From: a virus
Length of the DNA: 36,571 bases
Reading direction: 5' to 3' (one strand)
IMG/VR virus record: IMGVR_UViG_3300021964_000208
Location: 1-36,571 of that record
The position numbers and the translations under genes are program-made. Numbering within the stretch: the first letter of the stretch is position 1; every line of letters begins with the position of its first letter. Shown here one piece after another: positions 5,199-9,669 of this stretch. A model generated the notes under the pieces. That model did no database searches. It was not told the DNA's origin and worked only from the letters and a program-made list of their open reading frames with translations.

Positions 5199-5579
5199 AT
5201 GAATGGTATGTTATTCTTCTACATCTGGGTTGCGCTTTGGATTTATAATCACATACGCTTTTGGCGTAATTACTGGGGCGCAACAAAAGCTACTGCTTCA
5301 GAAATATATGAGGGTAAAGTAAAGACAGTGTTCTCAAAATACGGAGATGAGAGAAATCCTAAAGTTGGTCATACAACCTACTTCATCAAAGGAGTTCAGT
5401 TTATGGTATTCTTTATATGTACAGGCTTTTCGCTTCATATAGCAGATTCTGCAACTATAGCTTTCTTAGCATATAATATACTGATGTTTATTCAGTTTAA
5501 GAATAAAGAGACGTATCACTGGTTGAATGCTGCTCTCTGCTTAGGGATGGTCATAGAAAGAGTCCTATACTTTTTCTAA
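5199..5579 (+). CDS. Late-expressed membrane protein, 126 aa
   Basis: A 126-residue membrane protein with about four hydrophobic segments: residues 4-22, roughly 66-82, 84-97 and 108-125. The first is followed by an Arg/Trp-rich loop (IRFWRNYWG). It is one of only two plus-strand genes in the early region and carries a late promoter, so it is expected with the lysis and virion genes. A holin or another lysis role is possible, but no family match supports it. Its end overlaps the convergent lipoprotein gene by 4 nt. Confidence 0.75.
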   Translation: MNGMLFFYIWVALWIYNHIRFWRNYWGATKATASEIYEGKVKTVFSKYGDERNPKVGHTTYFIKGVQFMVFFICTGFSLHIADSATIAFLAYNILMFIQFKNKETYHWLNAALCLGMVIERVLYFF

Positions 5580-5758
5580 AATTTAATTTTATACTTCAAG
5601 AGAATTGTAGGGTCTGCCTGATAAACATCCGTGTAATTACTGTATGCAGATCTTTCAGCAGCATCAACCGTCTGTATCCAACTACGATGAGAGATACTAG
5701 TTGATGTGCACGACGTAAAAATAATTGCTAGACAGGTAGATGATATAAACAGTTTCAT
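5576..5758 (-). CDS. Small lipoprotein, 60 aa
   Basis: A 60-residue predicted lipoprotein with a short signal peptide (MKLFISSTCLAIIF) and lipobox FTSC at residues 14-17. The mature part has about 44 residues and no known domain. Upstream is a good Shine-Dalgarno sequence, AAGGAG, about 9 nt from the ATG, which is unusual in this window. A spanin or exclusion function can be imagined, but nothing in the sequence decides it. Confidence 0.7.
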   Translation of the reverse strand: MKLFISSTCLAIIFTSCTSTSISHRSWIQTVDAAERSAYSNYTDVYQADPTILLKYKIKF

Positions 5759-5776: not shown

Positions 5777-6016
5777 TTATCGCTCATATTGCTCTTTTAG
5801 CTTGTTAAGCTTTTCTATACTACTGTTAATGCGCTCACTATATCTTTTATGAACACCGCTCGTTAATTTATGCTCTACAGTATAATCCGGATTTTTACAA
5901 TTCATAGCTAACATGTTGTACTCTCCTGAAAGATCTTCACTAACACTAGCATGCATACGAAGCTCGGAAAGAGCATTCTCATATAACTTTTTATATAGTC
6001 TACTCTCCTCGCTCAT
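5777..6016 (-). CDS. Hypothetical coiled-coil-prone protein, 79 aa
   Basis: A charged, helix-rich protein beginning MSEESRLYKKLYENALSELR and ending in a Lys/Glu-rich helix (INSSIEKLNKLKEQYER). It overlaps the upstream gene by 17 nt in another frame. Family not recognised. Confidence 0.7.
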   Translation of the reverse strand: MSEESRLYKKLYENALSELRMHASVSEDLSGEYNMLAMNCKNPDYTVEHKLTSGVHKRYSERINSSIEKLNKLKEQYER

Positions 6017-6218
6017 TATTAATTAAACCATATAATGTTAAAGCGCTATGAACTGCCTCAATAACCATATCGTCAGAAAAGTAACGAAATACTTCTTGCA
6101 AAATATTATCCCCATACTCTCCCTGTACTGACTCTAGTAGCGGTACCCTGCACCCTGGATAGGTTTCCAAACCGAGTTTTTCTAGATCTTCTTTCATAAA
6201 TGTATAATTTTTTTCCAT
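6000..6218 (-). CDS. Hypothetical protein, 72 aa
   Basis: A 72-residue soluble protein (LETYPGCRVPLLESVQG, then a helical C-terminus). The start is set by the promoter box that ends 6 nt upstream. It heads a two-gene unit with the 5777-6016 gene. Confidence 0.75.
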   Translation of the reverse strand: MEKNYTFMKEDLEKLGLETYPGCRVPLLESVQGEYGDNILQEVFRYFSDDMVIEAVHSALTLYGLINNERGE

Positions 6219-6932: not shown

Positions 6933-7007
6933 TGGTACCCCGACCCTGAATTGAACAGGGAATCAAGCTTTAGAAGAGCTTTGTTATATCCGTTTAACTA
7001 CCGGGGC
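6933..7007 (-). tRNA. tRNA-Arg (UCU)
   Basis: Seven-pair acceptor (GCCCCGG with UCGGGGU), four-pair D stem (GUUA/UAAC), anticodon stem AAGCU/AGCUU around loop CUUCUAA with anticodon UCU, five-pair T stem (CCCUG/CAGGG) around UUCAAUU, and an encoded CCA. It reads AGA, a codon used often in the neighbouring phage genes. Confidence 0.92.
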
Positions 7008-7015
7008 ATTTAAAA

Positions 7016-7292
7016 TGGTAGGGCGACTGGGATTCGAACCCAGACTGGAGGGATTTTCTTACCAACTACAGCTTTCGCTGCTCTCTCGATTTGTGGTCTG
7101 GACTTTCTCTTCACCATGTCGTTATGATTTAGGTGCGCTCCCGTCAAGTCTCTACACGTTCCTTTTTAGGCTTCGCTCGAGATTACCATTTTAAAGGCTT
7201 CCTCGAATTTGAGAGCGTCCACTTACAAAGTTTCCAATGTAAGGCTCAATTTTACTATAAGTCCCCTGTCTCTGCCGTTGGACTACCGCCCC
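7016..7292 (-). tRNA. tRNA (UAA anticodon) interrupted by a group I intron
   Basis: The 5' exon is 7259-7292 (34 nt) and the 3' exon 7016-7057 (42 nt), giving a 76-nt tRNA. The joined molecule has a seven-pair acceptor (GGGGCGG with UCGCCCU), D stem GUC/GAC, anticodon stem GGGGA/UCCCU, loop CUUAAAA, T stem CUGGG/CCCAG around UUCGAAU, and encoded CCA. Splicing after U34 and before A35 gives anticodon UAA, which would read UUA as leucine. The variable loop is only 5 nt (CCAGU), whereas bacterial tRNA-Leu normally has a long variable arm, so the amino acid charged is uncertain. Confidence 0.88.
7058..7258 (-). ncRNA. Group I intron, subgroup IC3-like (cyanobacterial tRNA-Leu type)
   Basis: A 201-nt intron without an ORF. 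The 5' site follows U, with exon CUU pairing to intron GAG (U·G at the junction); the 3' site follows G (7058). Core elements match my memory of the Anabaena tRNA-Leu(UAA) intron: AAUUGAGCC near the 5' end, then UAAGUGGACGCUCUCAAAUU, and the P7/P3 segment AGAGACUUGACGGGAGCGC at about 7135-7153, then AACGAC, AAGAGAAAGUCCA, and GCAGCGAAAGCUG close to the 3' end. The insertion point (between U34 and A35) is also the same. Confidence 0.9.
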
Positions 7293-8171: not shown

Positions 8172-8187
8172 ATTATATCAATGTTCC
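8172..8187 (-). promoter_or_regulatory. Early promoter GGAAC-N5-TATAAT
   Basis: GGAAC-ATTGA-TATAAT, 56 nt before the ATG at 8115. It overlaps the end of the HNH gene. Confidence 0.75.
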
Positions 8188-8753
8188 AAAAAGATTTTCC
8201 ATTCTTCTCTAAGAACGTTAAAAGACATACCGTTAACGGGTCTAATAGGTTTCCTTATAAGCTTGAGACCGCACTCTTCCGGTAGTTTATTACTTTTAAC
8301 AGAATTGATATCTCTATCACAACAAACCATATTGCTCCACACATCCTCCCCTCCGCGGCTTACGGGTAGTACATGATCGATCGATAGCTGGTCCTTACTA
8401 AGCTTCTTTCCAGAATATTGACATGTATACTGATCCCGTTTATAAATGTTATTCTTTGTAGGAAACAATACTCTCGGGAAGAGAATTTTATTATAGGAAG
8501 CACATATAATAATTGAGGGCGATCTAATCGCTCCAAGAGGGGTGTGTATAAGATCGTCGATACTTCTAATATCTAAATCAATCCAATCCTCCCAATTCCT
8601 AATAGTCTCGAACCCAGTAACCTTATTGTCTTCGTCAAGATGAGTATTTATAGGGTATGCAGCTCCGCTAGTTACATTAAGTATAGCGTCTTGCCATGTG
8701 CATGTATCGATAGGGAAATATGATGCATTTAGCTTAAGGACTGGCCTCTTCAT
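8178..8753 (-). CDS. HNH endonuclease
   Basis: A 191-residue protein. The HNH_5-type domain occupies about residues 103-165: YKRDQYTCQYSGKKL, then SIDHVLPVSRGG (the His-Asp of the first strand), and WSNMVCCDRDIN (Asn and terminal His/Asn equivalent). In many relatives the first knuckle is CxYCG; here and in some phage members it is CQYSG, so the zinc site may be incomplete. A conserved N-terminal domain (VLKLNASYFPID, WQDAILNV) matches the stand-alone HNH family found in bacteria and phages. I use the ATG at 8753, overlapping the upstream gene by 20 nt. No intron surrounds it, so it may be a free-standing homing enzyme. Confidence 0.85.
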   Translation of the reverse strand: MKRPVLKLNASYFPIDTCTWQDAILNVTSGAAYPINTHLDEDNKVTGFETIRNWEDWIDLDIRSIDDLIHTPLGAIRSPSIIICASYNKILFPRVLFPTKNNIYKRDQYTCQYSGKKLSKDQLSIDHVLPVSRGGEDVWSNMVCCDRDINSVKSNKLPEECGLKLIRKPIRPVNGMSFNVLREEWKIFLEH

Positions 8754-9669
8754 TATCAATGTTAAATTTAAGATCCTTAATACTATTCTCAATTGACTCT
8801 AATACTGGAGTCATTTCAGTAACGCTATTAGACTTTAATACACAGTTGGATCTTGGAGCTTTAACATTTTCTAAGAAATGATCATACGTATCAAAGTACG
8901 TTATAGTAGAAGGATCGACTAGATCATACTTACCCAGTAGCTCAATAACTTGCTTTGTATTTACAAATCCAGGCTGAGTGAGGTTAAAAATATTATCTTT
9001 TACAATTTCTGACTCTTCCAGATAATGCATCGGTCTAATTGTATTAAATGTCTCTCTTACAAATTCTTCAATGTTAGAGAGAGAGTTAGTACAATTAAGA
9101 AGTGTTTTATATTTTAAGAGCTTTACCAGATAATTTCTATCACTATACTCTCCGTTGAAAGGCACTCTAAGTCTGCAGATTTTAATATTGCCTCTGGCAA
9201 ATTCACGGCACTCTTTCAGTAGTTTTTCGCCGAGAGCTTTACTACCGCTGTAGTAAGAACGATATCCAGTTTCAAAATTAAAGTTACTAGGAGAAAGATG
9301 ATGTATCTCGCTTGAAGGATAATCGCCTTCTTCGCATGTCTTATCAAAATAAATGCATCCAGACGAAATGTGAGCTAATTTTACGTGTTCCCAAAAACAA
9401 GCATCAGCTAGTTGAGCGGGTAGAAATGCATTCGCCATGAGACATTCCTCCTGCTGATCAGGGCTTTCGCACGCATCAACATTAGGCTTTCCAGTATACC
9501 CCGCGCAGTTAATTACTGCGTGTGCTTGAGTGTCTCTTAAGAGAGTCTCGAACTCTTCTTTATCAAGCGGGTATCGAGCTTTATATGTAGTATAATCAAT
9601 CCCATTGCTTTTGAAGAACTTAATAAAAGCGCTGCCTATATATCCTGTTGATCCAGTTAAAATAATCAT
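8734..9669 (-). CDS. NRS/ER-like nucleotide-sugar epimerase-reductase (RmlD family)
   Basis: A 311-residue short-chain dehydrogenase fold. The NAD(P) site is TGSTGYIG at residues 5-12, and the catalytic Tyr-x3-Lys is in SYYSGSK near 144. The stretch INCAGYTGKPNVDACE, the SSGCIYFD segment, and LTQPGFVNTKQ match the plant NRS/ER and Mimivirus reductases, which convert UDP-4-keto-6-deoxyglucose to UDP-L-rhamnose in two steps, more than they match bacterial RmlD. With the 4,6-dehydratase at 29512 this could make activated L-rhamnose for glycosylation of phage or host components. The substrate nucleotide (UDP or dTDP) is not determined. Confidence 0.8.
   Translation of the reverse strand: MIILTGSTGYIGSAFIKFFKSNGIDYTTYKARYPLDKEEFETLLRDTQAHAVINCAGYTGKPNVDACESPDQQEECLMANAFLPAQLADACFWEHVKLAHISSGCIYFDKTCEEGDYPSSEIHHLSPSNFNFETGYRSYYSGSKALGEKLLKECREFARGNIKICRLRVPFNGEYSDRNYLVKLLKYKTLLNCTNSLSNIEEFVRETFNTIRPMHYLEESEIVKDNIFNLTQPGFVNTKQVIELLGKYDLVDPSTITYFDTYDHFLENVKAPRSNCVLKSNSVTEMTPVLESIENSIKDLKFNIDNEEASP

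Follow-up and report, generated by a model that had tools for sequence, protein, structure and literature searches.

How does a tRNA gene in a phage genome come to be split in its anticodon loop, is the intervening element a working group I intron, and did it arrive with its tRNA or without it? These questions are raised by positions 7016-7292 (minus strand) of the viral record IMGVR_UViG_3300021964_000208, whose whole stretch of 36,571 nucleotides is here called the window. The explanation that we favour, and consider very likely to be right, is that the anticodon loop of a phage class I tRNA-Leu(UAA) was invaded by a minimal group I intron belonging to a lineage that is mobile between tRNA genes.

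Anatomy and fold of the split tRNA-Leu(UAA) gene

The minus strand from 7292 to 7016 reads GGGGCGGTAGTCCAACGGCAGAGACAGGGGACTT, then 201 nt, then AAAATCCCTCCAGTCTGGGTTCGAATCCCAGTCGCCCTACCA. With introns allowed (option -i), ARAGORN called tRNA-Leu(taa) and placed a 201-nt intron between positions 34 and 35, and without introns it called no tRNA at 7016-7292. The 34-nt 5' exon (7292-7259) contains the acceptor, D arm, anticodon stem and C32 U33 U34, and its D arm and anticodon arm are identical in intronless phage alleles, for example that of contig L126. The 42-nt 3' exon (7057-7016) contains A35 A36 with the rest of the loop, the anticodon stem, a 5-nt variable loop, the T arm, the acceptor, A73 and an encoded CCA; the spliced product given by ARAGORN is 76 nt long and keeps the 5-nt variable loop, A73 and the CCA. 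Across the junction the intronless alleles read ...GGGGACTTAAAATCCCT..., which confirmed the intron boundaries.

The 201-nt element itself (7258-7058, minus strand) had been taken in the sequence-only reading for a group I intron at U34|A35 of a phage tRNA(UAA), with a search against the Rfam model Intron_gpI as the proposed check. That search upheld the assignment, as did ARAGORN and the covariation described below: RF00028 matched at 54.9 bits against a gathering threshold of 50 (E 2.6e-13 in a 501-base stretch, 4.5e-15 for the whole record) and was the only group I model to do so. A fast whole-window Rfam scan at gathering thresholds had missed the intron, presumably through its filters, and the search of the short stretch recovered it. 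A covariance model, R1, scored the element at 206.8 bits; since its training set consisted of phage introns, the window's included, R1 scores lean toward phages. On its own strand the intron has no reading frame that reaches 60 aa, and it encodes no endonuclease. The group I intron of the window tRNA-Leu(UAA) is real and very probably functional.

The fold was assessed on 48 phage introns, aligned each with 10 nt of both exons, on which P1-P9, including the P3/P7 pseudoknot, were drawn by hand. Standard pairs fill 97.5% of the 2109 cells of this 44-pair structure, a percentage that is biased upward because the structure was drawn by eye on the same 48 introns. The two-sided changes are less exposed to that bias; they occur in 25 pairs and 363 cells, where shuffling gave 109 cells on average and sliding the partners gave 35-45. 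The structural match in the 48 introns is far beyond chance. P1 (7245-7261; this and the following elements on the minus strand) pairs exon CUU (7261-7259) with the internal guide GAG (7247-7245) through CG, UA and UG pairs that are invariant in the phage introns, the last being the U10.G29 pair at the 5' splice site (48/48). P4 (7207-7202 with 7181-7176) encloses P5 and is paired in 97.6% of its cells. In P3 (GCTCTC, 7216-7211, with GGGAGC, 7142-7137) 99.0% of cells are paired, four pairs changed on both sides, and pairs switch among CG, UA, GC and AU across the 48 introns. P7 (GACUU, 7150-7146, with AAGUC, 7105-7101), which forms the pseudoknot with P3, is paired in 99.2% of cells, its last pair being A-U in 30 of the 48 introns and U-A in the other 18. 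P8 is paired in every cell (100%), and P8 and P9 covary too. The 5' exon of the window ends in the U that forms U.G with the guide GAG, and the intron ends in G; this terminal G recurs in 225/225 extracted introns, the extraction having fixed the CUU and AAAAUC boundaries and not demanded the G.

If splicing had been lost, the tRNA gene would be dead and the element a decaying insertion. P2, the only helix with mismatched pairs in the window's intron, would suit such decay, but P1 and P3-P9 are intact together with the splice-site U and G, and the exons make a complete tRNA with encoded CCA; we therefore regard decay as very improbable. On the favoured reading of a functional intron, the element would fold in the transcript around P3-P8 and P7, exogenous guanosine would attack after U34 at the splice-site U.G pair of P1, and the freed U34 would then attack after the terminal G of the intron. 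Ligation would restore the 7-nt loop CUUAAAA and yield a 76-nt tRNA reading UUA. Self-splicing and use of the mature tRNA are predictions of this reading. UUA is the commonest leucine codon in 21 window genes (30%), and AGA makes up 51% of their arginine codons, matching the intronless tRNA-Arg(UCU) that lies just downstream of the tRNA-Leu (6933-7007, minus strand; ARAGORN, RF00005 55 bits).

Relatives of the window that share its TerL either stop short of the tRNA or, in the case of G005, retain the tRNA-Arg(UCU) at the syntenic spot; no tRNA-Leu was found in the stretches of G005 examined, and a 29-base intron-like match at the G005 locus, sitting inside a gene, was dismissed as chance. A neighbouring 118-aa gene gave no relative in IMG/VR. 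Elsewhere the window encodes a phage tmRNA (28741-29146, minus strand) whose predicted tag is unusually long (ADEEYRDLLAEAEQIFNNADAYVPEEALLAA); it is kept in four near-identical relatives (L279, L280, L281, L282) and was not found in the more distant L283 and L284. L052 likewise has a tmRNA (8312-8668), close to its intron-bearing tRNA. A PP-loop ATPase (PF01171; 11855-12568, minus strand) resembles tRNA-Ile lysidine synthetase and is possibly a tRNA-modifying enzyme. At 1-760 short frames follow one another in a run, with QVWDQVxNQV / DLIPDLPPDL repeats.

Class I tRNA-Leu of phages and the movement of introns between tRNA bodies

With its 5-nt variable loop, a feature passed over in the sequence-only reading, the window tRNA is of class I; the usual bacterial tRNA-Leu is of class II, and the long variable arm of that canonical molecule is absent here. 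Its D arm, TAGTCCAACGGCAGAGACA, together with the leucine anticodon, makes it a member of a phage class I tRNA-Leu family, and an intronless copy of the same tRNA body is present in Prochlorococcus phage P-SSM7, where it is annotated as tRNA-Leu for codon UUA. The exact D arm with its flanking bases was found in 31 IMG/VR contigs, all with the intron site uninterrupted (one with a CAA, also leucine, anticodon and one cut at the contig end). Sampling the family with a shorter D-arm string gave 124 intronless genes against 9 with an intron, and 3 truncated or unclear. The anticodons of the 124 were UAA (110), CAA (10) and UAG (4), and since only leucine anticodons occur, the sample supports the identity of the class I family as leucine tRNAs. 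All 107 intron-bearing bacterial genes that we sampled are of class II and none is a class I tRNA-Leu; within that sample, the short-variable-loop tRNA-Leu appears to be found only in phages.

The introns do not respect this division. Between L052, of class I, and L092, of class II, intron identity is 96.4% but exon identity 71%, and in the pairs L049/L091 and L109/L099 the introns are 93% identical and the exons 59-60%. Near-identical introns thus interrupt tRNAs of both classes whose bodies are unlike, so introns have moved without their tRNA. In the trees, class I introns are scattered among class II introns, the class label needing 7-9 changes, of which at least 4-7 are forced by starred branches. 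Within the single D-arm family, exons are 72-87% alike, and the window intron matches those of L111, L109, L299 and L307 at 78%, 75%, 74% and 68%; the introns of L299 and L109, both in the class I D-arm family, match class II introns at 93%. Because the introns of this family represent several lineages while its exons stay alike, the simplest reading is that one phage tRNA family received introns several independent times.

The sequence-only reading had suggested lateral movement of the intron with its tRNA. Lateral movement is borne out, but the companionship of the tRNA is not, given that similar introns occupy class I and class II bodies and that class I tRNA-Leu was absent from the sampled intron-bearing bacterial genes. 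A version of that view would have the phage capture a whole intron-bearing tRNA-Leu gene from a bacterium and lose the variable arm later. The introns of class II phage tRNAs and those of bacterial tRNA-Leu genes are clearly related, as capture would lead one to expect; the class I body, however, is mostly intronless (124 to 9), the L126 allele has the same D and anticodon arms, and introns within the D-arm family do not track the exons. Whole-gene capture is thus strongly disfavoured, and we consider it highly improbable.

As for the route by which an intron would invade a resident phage tRNA, the lineage may circulate among phages and bacteria with the anticodon-arm sequence GACUU|AAAAUC, common to tRNA genes, as its target, and be transferred either through homologous recombination or through homing driven by HNH enzymes, whether encoded in longer introns or acting in trans. 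HNH reading frames occur in long introns (about 590-860 nt) of both phages and bacteria, so that the means for DNA-level homing are present in the intron family, and we infer from these that homing may take place. Some 0.9 kb upstream of its tRNA-Leu the window has a free-standing gene for an HNH endonuclease (8178-8792, minus strand; PF13395 E 2.8e-11, phrog_16726 E 4e-28). That it is a candidate trans-acting homing enzyme is conceivable but unproven; its motif differs by eye from those of the intron-encoded HNH proteins. One exact-pattern search for the exon-intron junction of the window gave no other contig, and thereby no near-identical copy of the intron elsewhere.

Kinship of the intron and the cyanobacterial question

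The closest intron by global identity is a class II phage intron, that of L066 (82.7%), followed by class I phage introns at 80.6%, introns of Gamma- and Alphaproteobacteria at 77%, and the best cyanobacterial one at 68%. Phylogeny with cyanobacterial and proteobacterial introns, which had also been proposed at the outset, was carried out with 14 cyanobacterial introns as the sample of the cyanobacterial and plastid lineage. In the tree from the R1-fitted alignment the 14 form one clade (100/100), with the window and every phage intron outside it; the window joins the stem of that clade (86/83), in loose company with a phage tRNA-Arg intron and the phage class I introns of L028, L111 and L054. 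MAFFT-based trees likewise placed the window on that stem (98-99/80), with the join flagged as long-branch. Owing to this warning an AU test and a re-alignment with the covariance model were run. The AU test did not reject a grouping of the window with the phage introns of L066 and L017 (p 0.27), and after re-alignment the cyanobacteria were still a separate clade. For an intron of 200 nt the deep branching is weakly supported, and the exact sister of the window is left loose in the trees.

The intron had been called cyanobacterial-type, and one could envisage that a cyanophage acquired it from the tRNA-Leu of its host, making it a member of the old cyanobacterial and plastid lineage. The insertion site is shared and the core similar, several of the trees described above attach the window to the stem of the cyanobacterial clade, and P-SSM7, which infects Prochlorococcus, is among the intronless tRNA relatives. 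Set against this, all 14 cyanobacterial introns form a fully supported clade without the window; the identity of 68% falls below the 83% shared with a phage intron and the 77% shared with proteobacterial introns; the stem join carries the long-branch flag and the grouping with phage introns is not rejected; the window tRNA differs in class from the class II tRNA-Leu of cyanobacteria; and no host could be assigned to the window phage, whose TerL and tail sheath are only 32-42% identical to those of isolated phages. We consider a cyanobacterial origin unlikely. The term cyanobacterial-type is right for the site, U34|A35 being that of cyanobacterial, plastid and proteobacterial tRNA-Leu introns alike, and for the architecture, but it is unproven for descent.

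The tRNA-Leu(UAA) introns of cyanobacteria and plastids belong to subgroup IC3. In common with the window's intron they have the insertion at U34|A35, a CUU:GAG P1, a compact core, a terminal G and the GACUU|AAAAUC context; they differ in residing in class II tRNA-Leu hosts and, for the cyanobacterial ones, in forming their own clade, whereas the window intron is shorter and lies in a class I phage tRNA. Alpha- and gammaproteobacterial tRNA-Leu(UAA) introns resemble it in site and core, are closer than the cyanobacterial ones, and in some cases encode HNH proteins, but their hosts are chromosomal class II tRNA-Leu genes.

Intron-bearing tRNAs across phages and bacteria

A pattern scan of IMG/VR gave at least 118 contigs with such an intron in a tRNA, the viral status of contigs other than the window and the named phages being their IMG/VR membership, taken as given. 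After ARAGORN and normalisation of boundaries, the phage genes among the matches listed numbered 118, 24 of class I (the window included) and 94 of class II. The 107 bacterial genes from the same extraction have carriers that include Alpha-, Beta- and Gammaproteobacteria, Cyanobacteria, Acidobacteriota, Bacteroidota and Bacillota. Named phages are also represented. The huge-phage genomes LR756501 and LR756511 have the intron in a class II tRNA-Leu(UAA), the cultured Agrobacterium phage Atu_ph07 has a 362-nt tRNA-Leu(UAA) gene with a 278-nt intron, and a Microcoleus phage record has an annotated 286-nt tRNA-Arg that is likewise intron-bearing. The introns of LR756501, LR756511 and Atu_ph07 share insertion site, family and phage setting with that of the window; they differ in their class II bodies and, in LR756511, in a length of 700 nt with an HNH frame, and none is annotated.

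Several contigs carry introns in other isotypes. L097 has three intron-bearing tRNAs, Thr(GGU) at 112-384, Leu(UAA) at 5359-5644 and Met/Ile(CAU) at 5850-6132, the last split at U33|C34; its Thr gene apparently has a G-C pair (CUG:CAG) at the 5' splice site, U.G elsewhere. L031 (12957-13238) and L076 (3526-3807) have a tRNA-Arg(UCU) split at U34|C35 by a group I intron (RF00028 62.6 bits), adjoining an intron-bearing tRNA-Leu(UAA), and L076 has one more intron-bearing tRNA, SeC according to ARAGORN and possibly tRNA-Lys(UUU). The 240-nt insert in a tRNA-Thr(UGU) of L066 (5651-5966, minus strand) scores 75.9 bits with RF00028 and only 45 bits with R1, which marks it as a putative further intron lineage. 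A ROOL RNA (RF03087, 323 bits) lies at 3148-3722 of L015, in an array of phage tRNAs that includes a class I tRNA-Leu with an intron. Unannotated pairs of group I introns (RF00028 74-82 bits) were also seen in the capsid region of a marine podovirus (L005, 2452-2632 and 3161-3341) and in Pseudoalteromonas phage pYD6-A (L006, 2444-2691 and 3017-3273).

Small group I introns of tRNA genes are known to move laterally and transpose, as in tRNA-fMet of cyanobacteria, for which PMC8450103 and PMC3984707 cite the original work, and in tRNA-Arg(CCU) of alpha-proteobacteria. Those movements are bacterial, while the ones seen here cross unlike tRNA bodies in phages. According to a 2014 review, every phage intron then known lay in a protein-coding gene (PMC3984707). 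The introns reviewed there (td, nrdB, nrdD, DNA polymerase, capsid) resemble the present one in being group I introns of phages, in some cases with HNH/GIY-YIG or trans-acting free-standing enzymes, and differ in having protein-coding hosts instead of a tRNA (PMC3984707). The main text of the huge-phage paper makes no mention of introns (PMC7162821), nor does the Atu_ph07 paper mention its intron among the 33 tRNAs found by tRNAscan-SE (PMC6102473). In the literature covered, mostly from outside subscription journals, no account of group I introns in tRNA genes of phages came to light, and given that coverage we make no claim of priority. As a kind, group I tRNA introns are already known; new here are their setting in phage tRNAs, a target of class I and their exchange between tRNA bodies.

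At least 118 viral contigs and one cultured phage thus break the protein-gene-only rule of the 2014 review. Since tRNAscan-SE 2.0 was, according to its authors, not designed for detecting group I introns (PMC8450103), phage tRNA inventories such as that of Atu_ph07 can miss genes. The intron set also brings to light a class I family of phage tRNA-Leu and raises the question of how its members, putative substrates of LeuRS, are charged. More broadly, it makes testable whether tRNA-Leu introns are old and vertically inherited or have been re-seeded repeatedly by phages. We propose, tentatively and short of conviction, that phages may be a major and mostly unannotated reservoir and traffic route of tRNA group I introns, in which several lineages would hop between unlike tRNA bodies and isotypes, with class I tRNA-Leu as one landing site, and would seed bacterial genomes; even the ancestors of the tRNA-Leu introns regarded as vertically kept may have come this way.
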